This document shows positions 1 to 12,822 of a DNA stretch of 64,000 bases, one piece after another. Every line of letters starts with the position of its first letter. Position 1 is the stretch's first letter. A program made the position numbers and the translations under genes. The stretch is from Pseudarthrobacter sp. NIBRBAC000502770 (GTDB lineage Bacteria; Actinomycetota; Actinomycetes; Actinomycetales; Micrococcaceae): NCBI RefSeq assembly GCF_006517815.1, contig NZ_CP041198.1, positions 4,216,001 to 4,280,000 of the forward strand. The letters are read 5' to 3'. The notes beneath the pieces are model-generated. The model did not search any database. It worked only from the letters and a program-made list of their open reading frames with translations, and was not told where the DNA came from.

Positions 1-890
1 CGGCCGGCGCGGTAGGAGGAGCGGACCAGGGGTCCGGACATGACGCCGAGGAAGCCGATTTCTTCGGCTTCGTGCTGGAGGTCCACGAATTCCTGGGGTT
101 TGACCCAGCGGTCCACGGGCAGGTGCCGTTCGGAGGGGCGGAGGTATTGGGTGATGGTGATCAGGTCGCAGCCGGCCTGGTGGAGGTCGCGGAGGGCTTC
201 GCTGATTTCTTCGCGGGTTTCGCCCATGCCCAGGATGAGGTTGGATTTGGTGACCATGCCCAGGTTCCGGCCCTGGGTGATGACGTCCAGGGAGCGTTCG
301 TAGCGGAACGCGGGGCGGATCCGTTTGAAGATCCGGGGGACGGTTTCGACGTTGTGGGCGAAGACTTCGGGGGCGGAGTCGCAGATCGCCTTGATGTGGT
401 CGGGGTTGCCGGAGAAGTCGGGGATGAGCAGTTCGACGCCGGTGCCGGGGTTCAGTTCGTGGATCTTGCGGACGGTTTCGGCGTAGAGCCAGACGCCTTC
501 GTCTTCGAGGTCGTCGCGGGCCACGCCGGTGACGGTGGCGTAGCGCAGCTGCATGGATTGGACGGAGCGGGCCACCTTGGTGGGTTCGAACAGGTCCACG
601 GGGGAGGGTTTGCCGGTGTCGATCTGGCAGAAGTCGCAGCGGCGGGTGCATTCGGAGCCGCCGATCAGGAAGGTCGCTTCCTTGTCTTCCCAGCATTCGA
701 AGATGTTGGGGCAGCCGGCTTCTTCGCAGACGGTGTGCAGGCCTTCTTTTTTGACCAGGTTCTTCAGTCCGACGAACTCGGGGCCCATCTGGACCTTGGC
801 CTTGATCCACTCCGGCTTGCGCTCCACCGGGACCGCAGCGTTGCGCTGCTCGATCCGCAGCATCTTCCGGCCTTCAGGTGCCAGGGTCAT
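1..890 (-). CDS. lipA: Lipoyl synthase LipA (3' end cut by window edge)
   Basis: Radical-SAM enzyme that inserts two sulfurs into octanoyl groups on lipoyl domains; here its likely client is GcvH, encoded upstream in the same run. About 296 residues are visible and the C-terminus is off the window. Both iron-sulfur sites are present: the auxiliary cluster cysteines at 55, 60 and 66 ([12 protein letters not shown]) and the radical-SAM motif CTRRCDFC at 81-88. The ATG is preceded by a purine-rich AAAGGAAA. The start lies 46 bp after the sdaA stop on the same strand, so it is probably the last visible member of the gcv-glyA-sdaA-lipA run. Identity is very secure. Confidence 0.97.
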
Positions 891-936
891 GATCGTGTTT
901 CCTTTGTCTTCTGGGGGAGTCGGAGTGTGCCGGGTG

Positions 937-2376
937 TCAGCATTCAACGACGTTGACGGCGAGGCCGCCCATGGCGGTTTCCTTGTATTTGTCGCTCATG
1001 TCCTTGCCGGTTTCGCGCATGGTGATGATGACTTCGTCGAGGGAGACGCGGTGGGTGCCGTCGCCCCAGAGCGCCATTTTCGCGGCGTTGATCGCTTTCG
1101 CGGCCGCGATCGCGTTCCGTTCGATGCAGGGGACCTGGACCAGCCCGCCGATCGGGTCACAGGTCAGGCCCAGGTTGTGTTCCATCGCGATTTCCGCGGC
1201 GTTCTCCACCTGGGCGGGGGTGCCGCCCATGACTTCGGCCAGGCCCGCGGCGGCCATCGAGGACGCGGAGCCGACCTCGCCCTGGCAGCCGACCTCGGCC
1301 CCGGAGATCGAGGCCTGTTCCTTGTAAAGCACCCCCACGGCGCCGGCCGCGAGCAGGAACCGCACCACCACATCATCCCGGTCCGCCTGCGTTGCCTGGT
1401 CCATGCCCGGGGCGAAATGCAGGGCGTAGAACAACACCGCGGGGATGATCCCGGCCGCCCCGTTCGTGGGCGCGGTGACCACCCGGCCGCCGGAGGCGTT
1501 TTCCTCGTTCACGGCCAACGCCACCAAGTTAACCCACTCCTGCCAGTACCGTGGGTCGTAGTGGTCCTGCCCGTCCTGCCCGTCCTGGCCGGTGTCTTCG
1601 GGGCGGGCGGTTTCCTTCTTCAACCGCTCGTACCAGTCAGGGGCGCGGCGGCGGACCTTCAACCCGCCCGGCAGCACCCCTTCGCGTTTGAGCGAGGTCT
1701 GCACGCAGTTCTCCATCACGGACCAGATGTGCAGCAGCCCCGCACGGATCTCCTCCCCCGAGCGGGAGGCCAACTCGTTCGTGAACATCACGTCGGCGAT
1801 GCCCAGCCCGGTCACCGCGCAGTGCGCCAACAACTCCGCCGCGGTCCGGAACGGCAGCGGCAGCCCGTCCTTGGACGCGTCCAGTTCCTGCTGCGCCGCG
1901 TCCTCCTCCCCCTCCCGGACGATGAACCCGCCACCGACCGAGAAGAACGTCGCCGCGTGCACCACCGAACCCTGCGCGTCGGTGACCGTGAACGTCATCC
2001 CGTTCGTGTGCCGCGGCAGCACCGTCAACGGCCGCAACACCATGTCCTTCACCCCATACGGCAGCGCCACCGACCCGGCCAGGTTCAGGACCCCGGTCTC
2101 CGCGATCGAGGCCAGCCGCTCCTCGACCTCTTCGGGCAGGATCAACTCCGGATGGAACCCCTCCAAGCCCAGCAGGACCGCCGTCATCGTCCCATGCCCG
2201 TGCCCCGTCGCTGCCAACGACCCATACAAATCCACCCGCAACCCCGCCACCGCAGCCAGTTTCCCCGAGGCCTTGAGCTCCTCAGCGAACACAGCAGCAG
2301 CCCGCATCGGCCCCACAGTATGCGAAGACGACGGGCCAATCCCGATCGAAAAAAGATCAAAGACTCCGACTGCCAT
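937..2376 (-). CDS. sdaA: L-serine dehydratase, single-chain iron-sulfur type
   Basis: Converts L-serine to pyruvate and ammonia. The 479-residue protein has both halves fused: the beta-type N-terminus with [14 protein letters not shown] (residues 10-23) and the alpha-type half with cysteines for a 4Fe-4S cluster. It ends in Cys; in characterised relatives a C-terminal cysteine acts as a cluster ligand. The frame stays open upstream to 2544, but the family N-terminus MAVGVFDLF and an AAGGAT Shine-Dalgarno place the start at 2376. [10 protein letters not shown] tripeptide repeat near the middle comes from a short DNA tandem repeat around 1568-1592. It lies between glyA and lipA, so glycine turned into serine by GlyA can be drained to pyruvate. 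Confidence 0.95.
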
Positions 2377-2664: not shown

Positions 2665-3983
<1,319 letters not shown>

Positions 3984-3987
<4 letters not shown>

Positions 3988-4367
3988 AGTTCGCCGCCGT
4001 TCGCTTCGGCGTATTCCTCTGCGGACAGCAGCGGGCCCTCTTCGGTGACGGTGACCTTGAAGAGCCAGCCGGCGCCGTACGGATCGTTGTTGATCACGGC
4101 AGGGTCGCTGACGACGTCGTCGTTGACTTCCGTGACCTCGCCCGTGACGGGGGAGTACAGGTCCGAGACGGACTTGGTGGACTCGATCTCGCCACAGGTC
4201 TCGCCGGCCGTCACGGTGGAGCCAACCTCGGGCAGGTCAACGTAGACGATGTCGCCCAGTGCTTCGGCGGCGACAGCGGACACGCCAACCACGGACGGGC
4301 CGGAGCCGTCAGCGGCGATCCATTCGTGCTCGGCGGAATACTTCAGTTCGGCGGCAACTTTAGCCAT
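3984..4367 (-). CDS. gcvH: Glycine cleavage system H protein
   Basis: Small lipoyl carrier (127 aa) that shuttles the aminomethyl group from GcvP to GcvT. The lipoylated lysine is K65 in the motif [12 protein letters not shown]. The hydrophobic strands and length match the family. It lies 46 bp after gcvT and overlaps glyA by four bases. LipA, encoded downstream, would install its cofactor. Confidence 0.97.
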
Positions 4368-4413: not shown

Positions 4414-5526
4414 CTACTTTTGGCGCTTGTAGAACGGCAGGGCGACAACCTCGAAGGGCTCGGCCTTGCCGCGCAGGTCCACGTCCAGGGGGGTGCCCAG
4501 CCCGGCGTGCTCGACGTCGACGTAGGCCAGTGCTACAGGGTAGCCGAGGGTGGGGCTGGGCTGGCCGGAGGTCACCTCGCCCACCACGTTGCCGTCCTTG
4601 AGGACCGGGTAGCCGCCACGGCCGGCGCGGCGGCCGAGGCCCTTCAGGCCCACGAGCTTCCGCTTGGAACCGGCTTCCTTCGCAGCTTCCAGGGCGGAGC
4701 GGCCCACGAAGTCGCCTTCCTTGGACTTGAGCGCCACGACGGGGCCCAGGCCGGCGTCGAACGGTGAACGTTCCAGGGACAGCTCATTGCCATAGAGCGG
4801 CATGCCGGCCTCGAGGCGGAGTGAGTCGCGGGACGCAAGACCGCACGGGATGATGCCAAACTCTTCGCCGGCTTCGGCCACCTTGGCCCACAGGTTCGCG
4901 GCGTCGGCGTTCGGAATGAACAGTTCGAAGCCGTCCTCGCCGGTGTAGCCCGTCCGGGCCAGGATGACATTGTGGCCGGCGATGGTCAGCTCGTTGAACG
5001 CGTAGTACTTCAGGCCGGTGACCAGGGCGTGCTGGGATTCATCCGTGAGCTTGAGCAGGATGGCCTCGGCGTTGGGTCCCTGGACTGCGACGAGGGAGGT
5101 GGCCGACGAAGCGTCCTCCACCTTGACGTCGAAGTTAACTGCCCGTTCGGCGAGGGCTGCCGCCACGGTGGGGGCGTTGCCGGCGTTGGGGACCACCAGG
5201 TATTTTTCGTCGCCGAAACGGTAAGTGATGAGGTCGTCGATGATGCCGCCGTCCTCGTTGCAGATCAGCGAGTACTTGGCCTTGCCATCCGCGATGGCGG
5301 ACAACTTGCCCACCAGGGCGTAATCCAGGAAGGCGCCGGCTTCGGGGCCGGTGACCCAGACTTCGCCCATGTGGGAGAGATCGAACAGGCCCGCAGCTTT
5401 GCGGACGGCGTGGTGCTCGGCCAGTTCGGAGCTGTACTTGAGCGGCATCTGCCAGCCGCCGAAGTCGGTGAAGGAAGCGCCCAGGTTCTTGTGCTCTTCG
5501 TAGAGAGCCGTGTAGTTCTCAGTCAT
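4414..5526 (-). CDS. gcvT: Glycine cleavage system T protein (aminomethyltransferase)
   Basis: Takes the aminomethyl group on lipoyl-GcvH, releases ammonia and forms 5,10-methylene-THF. It is 370 residues, normal for bacteria. Visible family features are the N-terminal DFGGWQMPLKY segment, LFDLSHMGE, the folate-binding domain with GYTGEDGFELF, and the C-terminal barrel with VGEVTSGQPSPTLGYPVALAYV. It starts 10 bp after the gcvP stop, so both are almost certainly co-transcribed under the glycine riboswitch. Confidence 0.97.
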   Translation of the reverse strand: MTENYTALYEEHKNLGASFTDFGGWQMPLKYSSELAEHHAVRKAAGLFDLSHMGEVWVTGPEAGAFLDYALVGKLSAIADGKAKYSLICNEDGGIIDDLITYRFGDEKYLVVPNAGNAPTVAAALAERAVNFDVKVEDASSATSLVAVQGPNAEAILLKLTDESQHALVTGLKYYAFNELTIAGHNVILARTGYTGEDGFELFIPNADAANLWAKVAEAGEEFGIIPCGLASRDSLRLEAGMPLYGNELSLERSPFDAGLGPVVALKSKEGDFVGRSALEAAKEAGSKRKLVGLKGLGRRAGRGGYPVLKDGNVVGEVTSGQPSPTLGYPVALAYVDVEHAGLGTPLDVDLRGKAEPFEVVALPFYKRQK

Positions 5527-5536
5527 TGGGGGATCC

Positions 5537-8373
<2,837 letters not shown>

Positions 8374-8389
<16 letters not shown>

Positions 8390-8660
8390 GAGGAACTCCA
8401 GGATTGGCCGGCCACGAGTGGCTCGGCATGGATCGGGTCCCTCCCCGCTCTGTATTGGACCTGAGAGATTCCGCAAACCCAGCAAAGGCCTGCTTGCACC
8501 GTCGGTGAGTGCCGCCGGAGCAGCACTGCTTTCCAGAGTCGCCTCGCCGTGACGGTACATGGGCCTGAGAGATTCCTGGGGAGGATTTGCTCCTACGGCG
8601 CCTGCCCGGTGATGGCCGGGAGAACTCTCCCGCCACAGCTCGAAAGGCTTATTGAAATGT
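8374..8660 (-). repeat. Copy A of a 287-bp near-identical inverted repeat
   Basis: The reverse complement of this stretch matches 11714-12001 with about six substitutions and one single-base gap (near 97.5% identity by eye). It covers a putative -10, the whole tandem riboswitch, the leader and the first 16 bases of gcvP. The high identity in non-coding DNA points to a recent duplication or ongoing gene conversion. Confidence 0.9.
8440..8634 (-). promoter_or_regulatory. Tandem glycine riboswitch of the gcvP operon
   Basis: Read on the minus strand, two glycine aptamers follow each other. Aptamer 1 opens with GCGGGAGAG and has the core words GGCGCCGTAGGAGCAA and CTCTCAGGCCC. The linker GACTCTGGAAAGCA leads to aptamer 2, with CACCGACGGTGCAAGC, CTCTCAGGTCC and the closing ACAGAGCGGGGAGG. 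These match the known glycine class. The leader runs about 50 nt to the gcvP ATG. No clear U-tract terminator is visible between aptamer and gene, so control could be at translation. By family precedent glycine would turn expression on. A possible promoter just upstream is TTGTGA, 17 nt, TCAATA. Confidence 0.95.
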
Positions 8661-8962
8661 GGGTGATTCGGCTCACAAGTTACAGGATGGCGGCCCCGGG
8701 GAGCAAATCGGTCCGTCATGAAGCACGCAGGCGGGACCGTTAGGCAGATGCTGTCATGGCGGGCTTGACTTTTGTTCGTGACGGACACCACACTGAACCC
8801 CGTGATCCGGCCGGGCAGCGGAACTGGCCCAAAGAGCGCTGGGCGCTCCGTCGCCGGCTGTGATTACCGGAGGCCCAAAAATGCGCCGTGCGGCTGGAAA
8901 GCCCGCAGCGGATGCACTCCGATAACTGAACACTGATTTACCAATCAACGCTTTTGACCTGC
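8635..8962. promoter_or_regulatory. Divergent promoter region between two glycine riboswitches
   Basis: This 328-bp gap has no gene I can support. It must hold the promoters for gcvP (minus) and for the transporter-purU unit (plus). On the minus strand TTGTGA-N17-TCAATA lies just before the riboswitch. A dyad TGATT-TACC-AATCA lies at 8934-8947, close to the plus-strand riboswitch, and a TTGACC occurs at 8954. Confidence 0.55.
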
Positions 8963-9152
8963 GGCGGGAGAGCCCTGCCGGTACGTTCAGCAGGCGCCGT
9001 AGGAGCAAACCCTCCCCAGGAAACTCTCAGGCCCACGTACCGCCGCGGTGAGGCAACTCTGGAAAGCAGCCAGGCCCTGTCCTGGCTCACCGACGGTGCA
9101 AGCACGCCATCCCGGCGAGTGGAAACTCTCAGGTCCAAGACAGAGCGGGGAG
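8963..9152 (+). promoter_or_regulatory. Tandem glycine riboswitch of the transporter-purU unit
   Basis: It has the same two-aptamer layout as the gcvP element: GCGGGAGAG opening, AGGCGCCGTAGGAGCAAA, ACTCTCAGGCCC, the linker AACTCTGGAAAGCA, then CACCGACGGTGCAAGC, ACTCTCAGGTCC and GACAGAGCGGGGAGG. The variable stems differ clearly from the other two copies, so this is an older paralogue. The leader ends in GGAGTTCCTCA before ATG, almost the same start context as at gcvP and the MTHFR-like gene. Confidence 0.94.
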
Positions 9153-9205
9153 GAAATCCAATCTTTGCGACACCCCGGGTGCCGCTCGAACGATGGAGTT
9201 CCTCA

Positions 9206-10717
9206 ATGACGACCCATTCCCCGACGTCCCCCGGCGGCGGAGCCCCGCACCTGGAGCGGCAGCTCAGCAACCGCCACATCCAACTGATCGCCATCGGCGG
9301 CGCAATCGGCACTGGCCTGTTCATGGGTTCCGGCAAGACCATCTCGGCAGCCGGCCCCTCGGTGATCTTCGTATACATGATCATCGGTTTCATGCTGTTC
9401 TTCGTCATGCGTGCCATGGGTGAACTGCTGCTCAGCAACCTCAACTACAAGTCCTTCAGCGATTTCGCCGCAGACCTGCTGGGCCCGTGGGCCGGCTTCT
9501 TTACGGGCTGGACCTACTGGTTCTGCTGGGTCATCACCGGCATCGCCGATGTCATCGCCATCGCCGGCTACTCCCGGGAACTGTGGCCCGGGGTGCCCCT
9601 GTGGATCCCCGGCCTGGCCACCGTAGCCATCCTTCTCCTGCTGAACCTCACCACCGTCAAGGCCTTTGGCGAGACGGAGTTCTGGTTCGCGCTCATCAAG
9701 ATCATTGCCATTGCTGCGCTGATCATCGTTGGCCTGTTCATGATCTTCACCGGTTTCCAGTCCGACGCCGGTCCTGCCACCTTCACCAACCTGTGGAGCC
9801 ACGGCGGATTCTTCCCGAACGAGTTCATGGGCTTCGTGGCGGGCTTCCAGATCGCCGTCTTCGCCTTCGTGGGAATCGAACTGGTGGGCACCACCGCCGC
9901 CGAGGCCAAGAACCCGGAGCGGAACCTGCCCAAGGCCATCAACTCCATCCCCATCCGCGTGCTCCTCTTCTACGTAGGCGCCCTCATCATCCTGATGGCA
10001 GTCACCCCCTGGACCGAGTTCAGGGCCGGCCACAGCCCCTTCATCGCCATGTTCTCCCTGGCAGGCCTGGGCGCCGCAGCCACCATCGTCAACCTCGTGG
10101 TGCTTAGCTCCGCGATGTCCTCCGCGAACTCCGGCATCTACTCGACCTCCCGCATGGTCTTCGGCCTTGCCCAGGAAGGCGACGCTCCCGACGTCTTTGG
10201 CAAACTGTCCCGGCGGAAGGTGCCCCAGAACGCACTGTTCCTCTCCTGCGTGCTGCTGCTGTCCGGCGTCGTCCTCATGTATGCCGGCCAGGACGTGGGC
10301 AAGGCCTTCGACATGGTTACCACCGTCTCAGCTGTCTGCTTCGTCTTTGTCTGGTCGATCATCCTGGCCAGCTACATCGCCTTCCGCCGCCGCCGGCCGC
10401 ACCTGCATGAAGCATCGAAGTTCAAGATGCCCGGCGGTGTTGCCATGGTCTGGGTGGTCTTCGCCTTCTTCGCTTTCGTGATCTGGACCCTCACCACCCA
10501 GCCGGACACCCTGCTGGCCCTGCTGGTCACGCCGGTCTGGTTCATCCTGCTGGGCGCCGCATGGTTCGTCCTCCGCCGCCGGCCCGCACACCAGGCCCGA
10601 TTCGCCGCGTTCCAGGCTGAACTGCAGGCAGACCAGGACTTCACCGACGCCGCATCCGGCCAGGCCGCCCGTCAGGTTGCCGCCGCAGAAGCGGGGGAAG
10701 AGCGGGTCAAGCGGTGA
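9206..10717 (+). CDS. cycA: Amino-acid permease, CycA-like (glycine/D-serine/D-alanine)
   Basis: APC-superfamily proton symporter of 503 residues with about 12 membrane segments. The N-terminal signature RHIQLIAIGGAIGTGLFMGSG is typical of the AAT family, and GIELVGTTAAEAKNPERNLPKAINSIPIRVLLFY matches the CycA branch. The glycine riboswitch directly upstream supports glycine (or related small amino acids) as substrate. The frame is open upstream through the riboswitch; GGAG before the ATG at 9206 and family alignment fix the start. It ends in a GTGA overlap with purU. Whether it serves uptake or overflow export is not visible from sequence. Confidence 0.88.
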   Translation: MTTHSPTSPGGGAPHLERQLSNRHIQLIAIGGAIGTGLFMGSGKTISAAGPSVIFVYMIIGFMLFFVMRAMGELLLSNLNYKSFSDFAADLLGPWAGFFTGWTYWFCWVITGIADVIAIAGYSRELWPGVPLWIPGLATVAILLLLNLTTVKAFGETEFWFALIKIIAIAALIIVGLFMIFTGFQSDAGPATFTNLWSHGGFFPNEFMGFVAGFQIAVFAFVGIELVGTTAAEAKNPERNLPKAINSIPIRVLLFYVGALIILMAVTPWTEFRAGHSPFIAMFSLAGLGAAATIVNLVVLSSAMSSANSGIYSTSRMVFGLAQEGDAPDVFGKLSRRKVPQNALFLSCVLLLSGVVLMYAGQDVGKAFDMVTTVSAVCFVFVWSIILASYIAFRRRRPHLHEASKFKMPGGVAMVWVVFAFFAFVIWTLTTQPDTLLALLVTPVWFILLGAAWFVLRRRPAHQARFAAFQAELQADQDFTDAASGQAARQVAAAEAGEERVKR

Positions 10718-11640
10718 TCGGCACGGAAGCCCGCATGTCGCAGGGCAGCACGGCCGCGGCCGGGCAGCGCCAGGCCGTGGCTCCGGAAACGGGCAAGGAA
10801 TTCGTCCTGACATTCCATTGCCCGGATGCGCTCGGCATCGTCCAGGCGGTGGCGGCCTACCTGCTCGAGCAGGTATGCTACATCGTGGACATCAAGCAGT
10901 TCGGGGACCGCGCGAGCGGCAGGTTCTTCATGCGGATCCACGTCACCGCCCAGGTAGAGCTGGAACTCGACCACCTCCGGACCGGTTTCGAGCAGGTGGC
11001 CCGGGAGTGGCAGATGGACTGGCGCCTCGAACGCCACGGCCGCAAGCAGCCCATCCTGGTCATGGTGTCCAAATACGACCACTGCCTCAACGACCTCCTG
11101 TTCCGCGCCCGCAGCGGTGAGTTGCCCGTCCGGATTGCCGCCGTGGTGTCCAACCACCCGGACCTGGAACCCCTTGCCGCGTGGCACGGTGTCCCGTTCC
11201 ACCACATCCCGGTCACGCCCGATACCAAGGCGGAAGCTGAGGGGCGCCTGCTGGAACTGGTGGACCAGTACGCAGTGGAACTGGTGGTGCTGGCCCGCTA
11301 CATGCAGGTGCTCAGCGATGAAGCCACTACGCGCCTCAGCGGCAAGGCCATCAACATCCACCACTCGTTCCTGCCCAGCTTCAAGGGCGCAAAGCCGTAC
11401 CACCAGGCGTACGAACGCGGCGTCAAGACAGTGGGCGCCACTGCCCACTACGTGAACTCGGAGCTGGACGAGGGGCCCATCATTTCGCAGCAGGTCATCG
11501 AGGTGGACCACACGTATTCCGCTTCAGACCTGGTCACGGTTGGCCGCGACGCCGAATGCAAGGCGCTCACGAATGCCGTCCGCTGGCACGCTGAAGGGCG
11601 GATAGTCCTCTCCGGCAACCGGACGGTCATCCTCCGCTAG
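10714..11640 (+). CDS. purU: Formyltetrahydrofolate deformylase
   Basis: Hydrolyses 10-formyl-THF to formate and THF. An N-terminal ACT domain (FVLTFHCPDALGIVQAVAAYL) precedes the formyltransferase-fold domain, with NIHHSFLPSFKGAKPYHQAY and the catalytic-region sequence ATAHYVNSELDEGPII. Length is 308 residues from the GTG that overlaps the permease stop; an in-frame ATG at 10735 is an alternative start. In E. coli PurU balances one-carbon units against glycine and methionine, so placing it under a glycine riboswitch makes physiological sense: glycine cleavage would otherwise fill the one-carbon pool and trap THF. Confidence 0.94.
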   Translation: MIGTEARMSQGSTAAAGQRQAVAPETGKEFVLTFHCPDALGIVQAVAAYLLEQVCYIVDIKQFGDRASGRFFMRIHVTAQVELELDHLRTGFEQVAREWQMDWRLERHGRKQPILVMVSKYDHCLNDLLFRARSGELPVRIAAVVSNHPDLEPLAAWHGVPFHHIPVTPDTKAEAEGRLLELVDQYAVELVVLARYMQVLSDEATTRLSGKAINIHHSFLPSFKGAKPYHQAYERGVKTVGATAHYVNSELDEGPIISQQVIEVDHTYSASDLVTVGRDAECKALTNAVRWHAEGRIVLSGNRTVILR

Positions 11641-11656
11641 TTGCAGGCCCATCCAC

Positions 11657-11704
11657 GCGGCCGGCGCTGCACTCCTCCCAGGCGGAGGGGCAGGCGCCGG
11701 CCGC
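11657..11704 (+). terminator. GC-rich hairpin after purU
   Basis: Perfect 11-bp arms GCGGCCGGCGC (11657-11667) and GCGCCGGCCGC (11694-11704), with a smaller CCTCC/GGAGG stem inside the loop. It sits between the purU stop and the next riboswitch and lacks a clear U tract. It probably ends or insulates the transporter-purU transcript. Confidence 0.6.
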
Positions 11705-11713
11705 CGTGGCACC

Positions 11714-12001
11714 ACATTTGAATACAGCCTTTCGAGCTGTGGCGGGAGAGTTCTCCCGGCCATCACCGGGCAGGCGCCGTAGGAGCAAATCCTCCCCAGG
11801 AATCTCTCAGGCCCATGTACCGTCACGGCGAGGCGACTCTGGAAAGCAGTGCTGCTCCGGCAGTACTCACCGACGGTGCAAGCAGGCCCTGGCTGGGTTT
11901 GCGGAATCTCTCAGGTCCAATACAGAGCGGGGAGGGACCCGATCCATGCCGAGCCACCCGTGGCCGGCCAATCCTGGAGTTCCTCATGACGATTCAATCC
12001 C
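11714..12001 (+). repeat. Copy C of the 287-bp near-identical inverted repeat
   Basis: This is the partner of 8374-8660 in opposite orientation. Differences by eye: one base in ACATTT(C/G)AATA, one inserted C, two in the second aptamer's stem (GGCGGCAC versus GGCAGTAC), two near GGCC(TTT/CTG)GC, and one in CAC(T/C)CGTGG. The stem changes appear to keep pairing, by exchanging G-U and Watson-Crick pairs. The match ends abruptly after ATGACGATTCAATCCC, inside the coding sequence. Confidence 0.9.
11742..11935 (+). promoter_or_regulatory. Tandem glycine riboswitch of the MTHFR-like gene
   Basis: Two glycine aptamers with the same core words as the gcvP element (GGCGCCGTAGGAGCAA, CTCTCAGGCCC, CACCGACGGTGCAAGC, CTCTCAGGTCC, ACAGAGCGGGGAGG), nearly identical to it throughout. 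The likely -10 element is inside the duplicated block, but sequence further upstream differs from gcvP, so the two promoters may differ in strength. Confidence 0.95.
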
Positions 12002-12822
12002 TCATGGCACCAGCCGCCGCATCGATCCCCGCGGCAGGACAGGCCTCCGGTTCCGGGGCAGCGCTGCCCGTCCGGATGCAGATCAATCCCACCGAGGATG
12101 TTGCCGCCCTCGTCCAGGCACACGCTCCCGCCGGCACGGCCCTGACGGTGACCTGCCTGCCGCGCCAAGGTGTGGGGCCGACCATCCGGACAGCCATCGA
12201 GCTTGCCTACCTCGGCTTCGAGGTTGTCCCGCACCTGGCCGCACGGAGCATCGAAAGCCGTGGGCAGCTGGCCGGTGTGGTCCGGAACTGCCACGATGCC
12301 GGGATCACCGAAGTATTCGCCGTCGGCGGTGACGCAGGGGAGCCCGCCGGGCCCTATGACAGCAGCCTTCCGCTGCTGGAGGACCTCGCCGAGCTGTCCG
12401 GCGGCACCATCCGGGCCGGTGTGGCGGGCTACCCGGAAGGCCATCCCGGCCACGGCGAGCTGCACATGCTTGATGCGTTGCTGGAAAAGCAGCATCTGGC
12501 CTCATCCGTGGTGACGCAGCTGTGCTTCTCGGCCTCCCGCATCCAGTGGTACGCAGAAATGCTCCGCCGGGAAGGGGTGCGGCTCCCTGTCTGGGCCGGA
12601 GTTCCCGGCGCCGTTCCCCGGGAGCAGCTCATCCGCGCCGCACTGAAAATCGGGGTGGGCCCCTCCCTCAAATTCCTGAATCGCAGGGGCCCGCTCGGCC
12701 GCCGCCTGCTCAAGGGCGGCCTCTACTCACCGCAGGCGATCCTTGCGGAGCTGGAGGGCGGCGGGGTGGTGGAGGGGGTGCACCTGTACACGTTCAACAA
12801 CCTGGCGGGCACCGGCAGCTAG
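11986..12822 (+). CDS. Methylenetetrahydrofolate-reductase family protein
   Basis: The protein has 278 residues and the TIM-barrel style of the MTHFR family: VTCLPRQGVGPTIRTAIELAYLGFEVVPHLAARSI near the N-terminus, EVFAVGGDAGEPAGPY in the middle, and LYTFNNLAGT at the end. It looks shorter and more divergent than canonical MetF, so it could be a second MTHFR working with glycine or methyl-group catabolism rather than methionine synthesis. The start ATGACGATTCAATCC was copied with the riboswitch from gcvP, so its first residues MTIQS are borrowed. With glycine control, a role in methylene-THF disposal is reasonable but inferred. Confidence 0.8.
   Translation: MTIQSLMAPAAASIPAAGQASGSGAALPVRMQINPTEDVAALVQAHAPAGTALTVTCLPRQGVGPTIRTAIELAYLGFEVVPHLAARSIESRGQLAGVVRNCHDAGITEVFAVGGDAGEPAGPYDSSLPLLEDLAELSGGTIRAGVAGYPEGHPGHGELHMLDALLEKQHLASSVVTQLCFSASRIQWYAEMLRREGVRLPVWAGVPGAVPREQLIRAALKIGVGPSLKFLNRRGPLGRRLLKGGLYSPQAILAELEGGGVVEGVHLYTFNNLAGTGS

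Follow-up and report, generated by a model that had tools for sequence, protein, structure and literature searches.

A copied gcvP riboswitch leader before a methylenetetrahydrofolate reductase-like gene in a Pseudarthrobacter glycine island

The third leader of the island

The subject of this study is a glycine island of Pseudarthrobacter sp. NIBRBAC000502770, whose genome comprises 4.48 Mb in two contigs. The window, i.e. the whole stretch of DNA that was analysed, covers 64,000 nucleotides (contig NZ_CP041198.1, positions 4,216,001 to 4,280,000), and coordinates below refer to it. The island carries three glycine riboswitch leaders, located upstream of gcvP, of cycA-purU and of a gene encoding a methylenetetrahydrofolate reductase (MTHFR)-like protein, hereafter MTHFRL. 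The leader alignment and the comparison of the two regions revealed that the third leader reproduces the 5' end of gcvP, copied and fused before MTHFRL. The segments 8374..8662 (minus strand), which holds the tandem riboswitch, the start and the first codons of gcvP, and 11712..12001 (plus strand), which precedes MTHFRL, are the two arms of an inverted repeat, with 283 of 290 positions identical. The copy spans the leader, the ribosome site, the gcvP start codon and the first codons, so that MTHFRL (11986..12822, plus strand) starts at the copied gcvP start codon and opens MTIQS like GcvP. The cycA leader stands clearly apart from the two others. An earlier note, made from the letters of this DNA, had described the three riboswitches; although its outer coordinates coincide exactly with the ends of the inverted repeat (8374 and 12001), it missed that the third leader had been copied from the first.

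The covariance scan that the earlier note had proposed as a check was run with RF00504 (curated cut-off: 32 bits) on the window and on the whole genome. The window scan returned one aptamer per leader, overlapping matches of the same clan presumably being removed: 8543..8642 (minus strand, 54.5 bits) for gcvP, 8955..9052 (plus strand, 62.7 bits) for cycA and 11733..11832 (plus strand, 54.5 bits) for MTHFRL. The genome search added the second aptamers, at 8440..8546 (minus strand, 46.4 bits), 9049..9153 (plus strand, 50.8 bits) and 11829..11935 (plus strand, 44.7 bits), respectively. With E-values of 1.2e-7 to 2.1e-12, chance is ruled out for the six aptamers, and as a second aptamer above the cut-off adjoins the first in all three cases, each leader is tandem. 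The claim of three tandem glycine riboswitches within 3.6 kb is therefore confirmed (44.7-62.7 bits), both aptamers of each element scoring above the cut-off; the word tandem applies to the aptamers only, as the first two leaders are divergent and the three are thus not arranged head to tail. Each of the three switches is an ordinary RF00504 member.

To locate the full copy elsewhere, a 400-base probe over the third leader was compared with 206 genomes of the genus, including that of the window (G000), three candidates being scored per genome. A full third leader between purU and MTHFRL was found in six of the 206 (the window genome, G026, G035, G017, G194 and G009), and the remark that three leaders so close together are unusual was fair. 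Comparison of the loci showed that G007 retains the end of the leader and MTHFRL, that G056 keeps leader remnants with no MTHFRL at the locus, and that G104 and G198 have neither purU nor MTHFRL there; in the 150-genome search, which excluded G198, just weak, paralogue-level MTHFRL matches remained for G056 and G104. A search for related loci yielded seven, among which two Cellulomonas sequences (29-30% identity) were left unused.

History of the copied leader

Taking the evidence together, we consider it fairly probable that the gcvP-leader copy before MTHFRL results from ancestral copying, followed by decay in some lineages and by conversion, that the leaders are ON switches and that MTHFRL works on the folate pool. 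Copying would have taken place at least once, in ancestors whose MTHFRL lay behind cycA-purU; several lineages would then have dropped the aptamers and retained a scar of the start region, while the species group of the window would have retained the full switch, its likeness to the gcvP leader being maintained by gene conversion between the inverted arms.

The pairing of the leaders was assessed over 282 alignment columns by combining the gcvP and MTHFRL leaders of the six carriers in all 720 ways. The true pairs summed to 41 differences, compared to a mean of 58.3, and only 4 of the 720 pairings were as low. When the leader was divided into parts, the tail (2/720) and aptamer 2 (45/720) carried the signal. 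Pairing was clear in G009 (3 differences with its own gcvP leader, 10-17 with the others), and in G035 the own leader was the best partner (4 versus 6-13). In addition, a topology uniting the six MTHFRL leaders in one clade was rejected (p-AU 1.5e-8, 275 columns). Gene conversion appears to be the simplest account of the likeness between the leaders, and as these comparisons favour it, the age of the copy is probably greater than its likeness would indicate. By contrast, had the gcvP leader been duplicated just once and recently, in the common ancestor of the six carriers, no conversion would be needed, the likeness simply reflecting youth. The near identity of the two arms, the close relationship of the carriers and the lack of pairing in two of the six would suit such an event. 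However, MTHFRL has accumulated a synonymous divergence (dS) of 0.51-0.82 among the four intact carriers, yet the MTHFRL leaders are 93-98% alike; together with the overall pairing, the rejection of a single clade and the traces found in more distant relatives, described below, this makes a recent duplication quite unlikely.

These traces are of two kinds. First, an 18-base motif of the start region was recovered in relatives that have no leader, with 18 of 18 matches in G007, 17 in G002, G129, G138, G141 and G191, 16 in G024, 15 in G018 and G050, and 14 in G180. Of the 20 shuffles made for each locus, the best gave 10-14 matches, a range that makes G180 borderline. In G024, G018, G180 and G050, the stretch also resembles, by eye, the start of the gcvP gene of the same genome. 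Second, the genome G232 belongs to another genus and has the same divergent gene order; its MTHFRL is preceded by a copy that retains aptamer 1 (45.8 bits) but has lost aptamer 2. This copy is identical to the gcvP leader of G232 itself at 107 of 109 bases, versus 88% identity to that of the window, and the N-terminus of the G232 MTHFRL runs on like GcvP. The scars of the leaderless relatives and the G232 copy suggest that the copying predates the six carriers. If several species had each copied their gcvP leader anew, instead of converting one old copy, species-paired variants would be equally expected, and the G232 case would be accounted for too. Nevertheless, in all six carriers the leader occupies the same place, after purU and before MTHFRL; the spacer ahead of it is similar, and it joins the gene at the same point, a few codons in. 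We regard repeated copying as improbable.

Several observations weigh against the history of ancestral copying, decay and conversion that we prefer. Aptamer 1 gave no pairing signal (720/720), being nearly invariant and hence uninformative. Pairing was tied in G000 (5 differences with its own gcvP leader and with two others) and in G026 (4 and 4), and was contrary in G017 (13 with its own, 8-15 with the others) and in G194 (12 with its own, 9 with that of G009). The conversion tests rest on 275-282 columns, and the tree does not fix the species order. Finally, the start-region motif was not found in the leaderless G172 and G025, and the scars are partly explicable by leaders of the cycA type, which share the motif.

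Proposed glycine control of MTHFRL and the putative switch direction

The setting of MTHFRL was mapped at 77 loci of the same genus, collected by the 150-genome search and completed with G172, G180, G191 and G194 from the 206-genome probe search; the window and the paralogue or control loci L055, L056 and L106 were excluded, and 11 more high-scoring matches of the 150-genome search, ten of which begin less than 900 bases from a contig start, were not fetched. The loci were picked by MTHFRL and not by riboswitch, and intervening genes were judged on the mapped genes alone. A co-directional glycine leader with no mapped opposite gene in between lies upstream of MTHFRL at 59 of the 77 loci. MTHFRL closes the order gcvP-gcvT-gcvH-glyA-sdaA-lipA-MTHFRL at 27 of these and the order cycA-purU-MTHFRL at 11; the leader directly precedes MTHFRL at nine; and the remaining arrangements are lipA-MTHFRL (seven), sdaA-lipA-MTHFRL (three), cycA-MTHFRL (one) and MTHFRL after a gcvP fragment (one). 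Among the other 18 loci, 16 run off a contig: at 15 the upstream stretch is no longer than 1,344 bases, and the contig of L134 begins inside gcvP.

At the family level, 54 of 245 genomes match MTHFRL at E 1e-30, eight of which belong to the same genus. The best-scoring 26 of the 46 matching genomes from other genera were examined, and in 25 of them a same-strand riboswitch was read by hand within 9 kb upstream of MTHFRL; the sole exception is G403, in which a contig end cuts the region. Gene order was concordant in 19 of the 20 fetched regions of other genera, the twentieth being G403. No glycine riboswitch was found within 1.5 kb of the canonical metF of the window genome (C2:1848696) or of its third MTHFR paralogue. 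On this comparative evidence, MTHFRL is a glycine-regulon gene across its family. The proposal that glycine controls cycA-purU and the MTHFR-like gene is thereby supported as a comparative inference, the arrangement being common to relatives in several genera.

A few individual loci deserve mention. The third MTHFR paralogue (L056, G000:C2:3679000-3697000), 31-32% identical to MTHFRL and with the catalytic Glu kept, adjoins a second purU and several gcvT-like genes. At L144 (G041), MTHFRL comes after a glycine leader and then a gcvP fragment, as if the rest of the gcv operon had been deleted. L206 (G305) has two same-strand glycine leaders, which precede cycA and MTHFRL, respectively, and are separated by 1.8 kb. 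At L106 (G036:C60), a distant MTHFR-like paralogue (37%), with Lys aligned at the catalytic position, closes a riboswitch-led gcvP-gcvT-gcvH-glyA row.

Regarding the direction of the switches, a C-rich tract in aptamer 1 of the third leader (11791..11797, plus strand) is complementary, by eye, to a G-rich tract after aptamer 2 (11929..11935, plus strand), and these could form the 5' and 3' sides of a putative P5 pseudoknot. Six to seven P5 pairs could form in 136 of 137 leaders, the exception being the G232 copy; the tracts are mostly invariant and show little covariation, so that the complementarity indicates potential only. According to the part of PMC13104608 consulted, ON-type glycine switches frequently have P5 pairing and OFF-type ones do not, and excerpts of PMC12452182 and PMC6944388 report a translational preference in Actinobacteria. 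In the terminator scan, none of the three leaders contained a terminator with a U tract. From the P5 potential, the lack of such terminators and the preference cited for Actinobacteria, we infer that all three are probably translational ON switches.

The unit boundaries were also inspected. The sole terminator-like site lies inside cycA, versus 2.7 expected in shuffles. A GC-rich hairpin without U tract (11653..11709, plus strand) stands between purU and the third leader; the 92-nt spacer folds at -49.5 kcal/mol (z -3.84), and the hairpin may mark where the cycA-purU unit ends. The full leaders showed no notable folding (z -1.60 and -1.22), and therefore no switching model was built on their folds. 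Matches to other Rfam families in 8300-12100 (SAM_alpha at 18.6 bits versus 36; microRNA, snoRNA and sRNA families) were sub-threshold and were discarded as chance matches. Some of these results count against a glycine-responsive MTHFRL with its own ON switch: the promoter scan found none for the third leader, the hairpin covaries weakly, with 1 of its 13 pairs changed on both sides, and two same-genus loci have no co-directional leader (L125, without leader, and L149, with an opposite leader only).

The MTHFRL protein and its setting

MTHFRL passes PF02219 (44.3 versus 24 bits) and fails the TIGR00676 equivalog (51.6 versus 293.7 bits). Its nearest solved relative by sequence is the MTHFR of Sphingobium SYK-6 (7xg9; 94.7 bits, phmmer), and the top Foldseek matches of its structural model are 7xlf and 7xg9, both MTHFRs, at 27-29% identity. 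The model is a TIM barrel with eight long strands, its mean pLDDT being just 60.6 with five alignment rows. In the phmmer alignment to 7xg9, which is a sequence alignment and not a structural superposition, codon 32 (12079..12081, plus strand) encodes Gln in place of the catalytic Glu, within the model strand 29-33. After removal of the multi-piece loci L094 and L151, residue 32 is Glu in 72 of 79 aligned rows and Gln in the window, G026, G009 and G017; three rows remain, namely a paralogue with Lys, the canonical MetF with a gap, and G035 read in the wrong frame. Frame-by-frame reading gave Gln32 in G035 and Glu32 in G194, and hence Gln in four of the five other carriers. All 20 fetched MTHFRL proteins of other genera have Glu32, and Gln178 is conserved in 79 of 79 rows. 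As the catalytic Glu is mostly replaced by Gln in the species group of the window, ordinary MTHFR turnover is doubtful. The ratio of non-synonymous to synonymous divergence (dN/dS) is 0.18-0.22 among the four intact Gln32 genes (six pairs), compared to 0.11-0.20 in five Glu32 pairs (three cycA pairs were left out of the run for in-frame stops), indicating that MTHFRL is still under purifying selection.

Under the proposed scheme, high glycine would lead to synthesis of the permease, the cleavage system, GlyA and SdaA, converting glycine to serine and then pyruvate, and of PurU, which would hydrolyse formyl-tetrahydrofolate (THF) to formate and THF; MTHFRL would be made alongside. The probable role of MTHFRL is to act on, or to bind, the methyl/methylene-THF pool loaded by glycine cleavage. 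The coordinated removal of one-carbon units put forward in the earlier note presumes a working MTHFR and is weakened because the window protein is without the catalytic Glu and has as its closest match, by sequence and fold, the SYK-6 enzyme, of a subfamily described as favouring oxidation.

That MTHFRL oxidises methyl-THF to methylene-THF, releasing folate for glycine cleavage as in SYK-6, is a possibility that we hold tentatively: 7xg9 and 7xlf are the best matches by sequence and by fold, and their subfamily prefers methyl-THF oxidation according to the part of PMC13001107 consulted, but the low identity, a Gln32 that may hamper this direction as well, and a SYK-6 partner setting not found among the mapped neighbours (gcv, cycA, purU; no search was aimed at LigM) speak against it. 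Slightly more doubtful is a working methylene-THF reductase that sends one-carbon units to methionine. Membership of PF02219, the barrel fold, co-regulation with purU and the Glu32 of most relatives are in line with such an enzyme; the window and four other carriers have Gln32, and the corresponding E. coli Glu28Gln enzyme keeps about 0.01% activity or less (PMC11094777, consulted in part), the protein falls far under the TIGR00676 cut-off, and a canonical metF is present elsewhere in the genome. Decay of MTHFRL in this species group, with the leader as a passenger, is unlikely. Gln32, the Asp116His change in G026, the broken frames of G035 and G194 and the absence of MTHFRL from the locus in G056, G104 and G198 would agree with it, but the dN/dS values and the invariant Gln178 do not, and the break in G194 may be an assembly error, since gcvP is split there too. 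Lastly, it is conceivable, although we give it little credence, that MTHFRL is a natural counterpart of Glu28Gln, a selected folate-binding buffer or sensor of methyl-THF rather than a reductase, with its own converted switch. The fold search also matched PDB 1zp4, titled as the E. coli Glu28Gln mutant with methyl-THF bound, and a Gln variant of this kind can thus bind the ligand.

As a side observation, the broken open frames are those of loci L048 (G035) and L094 (G194).

Like the gcv-type tandem RF00504 systems, the island has two aptamers per leader before gcv, glyA, sdaA and a glycine-type permease; it differs by a lasting MTHFR-like target and by the inverted-repeat copy of the gcvP leader. 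Chloromethane degraders reportedly use a second, divergent MTHFR (MetF2) jointly with PurU in one-carbon metabolism; that system operates in methyl-group catabolism, whereas MTHFRL and purU belong to a glycine regulon. The SYK-6 MTHFR, the best match of MTHFRL, has other mapped neighbours, and MTHFRL differs from it by Gln at the catalytic position. Operons of gcvT-gcvH-glyA-sdhA under contiguous glycine riboswitches are described for Actinomycetota in the section of PMC12452182 consulted. Singlet glycine riboswitches derived from decayed tandems are presented in the part of PMC6944388 consulted; the G232 copy has likewise kept aptamer 1 and lost aptamer 2, but here the tandem parent is in the same genome and nearly identical over the kept part. 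Titles and abstract beginnings of the open-licence literature searched contained no report of an MTHFR-like target or of converted riboswitch leaders, and the word "methylenetetrahydrofolate" does not occur in the main texts of PMC3766115 and PMC6944388. As far as these searches reach, the targeting of an MTHFR-like gene, the copied leader that includes gcvP codons, its apparent concerted evolution and the Gln32 change are new. They suggest that a gene can be brought under metabolite control by copying the whole riboswitch leader and start codon of a neighbour, that such a copy may stay alike through gene conversion, and that one aptamer can be all that survives of a tandem switch while the parent persists intact alongside. 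Likeness may thus misdate leader copies, a caution for studies of riboswitch evolution. They also link a family of MTHFR-like genes with the breakdown of glycine across a bacterial family, in which Glu32 versus Gln32 offers a ready natural contrast for enzymology.

The remaining genes of the island agree in name with those listed in the earlier note, family matches bearing out all but lipA. On the minus strand are gcvP (5537..8389; TIGR00461, 1324 bits), gcvT (4414..5526; TIGR00528), gcvH (3984..4367; TIGR00527), glyA (2665..3987; PF00464), sdaA (937..2376; TIGR00720) and lipA (1..896), which is clipped by the window end and is named from the earlier note and its translated open frame, outside the family scan. 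On the plus strand are cycA, a gene for a CycA-type D-serine/D-alanine/glycine permease (9206..10717; NF008272, 736.6 bits versus a cut-off of 732), and purU (10714..11640; TIGR00655, 325.4 versus 285.95 bits). The genome holds a fourth glycine leader at C2:248331 (60.8 bits; its second aptamer, at 29.9 bits, is below the cut-off), upstream of a second gcvP-gcvT-sdaA set. The two sdaA copies (937-2376 and L054:13675-15369) are 96.2% identical over 1709 bases, whereas the adjoining gcvP-gcvT genes are 83.3% identical between the sets, which suggests conversion or recent exchange for sdaA also.

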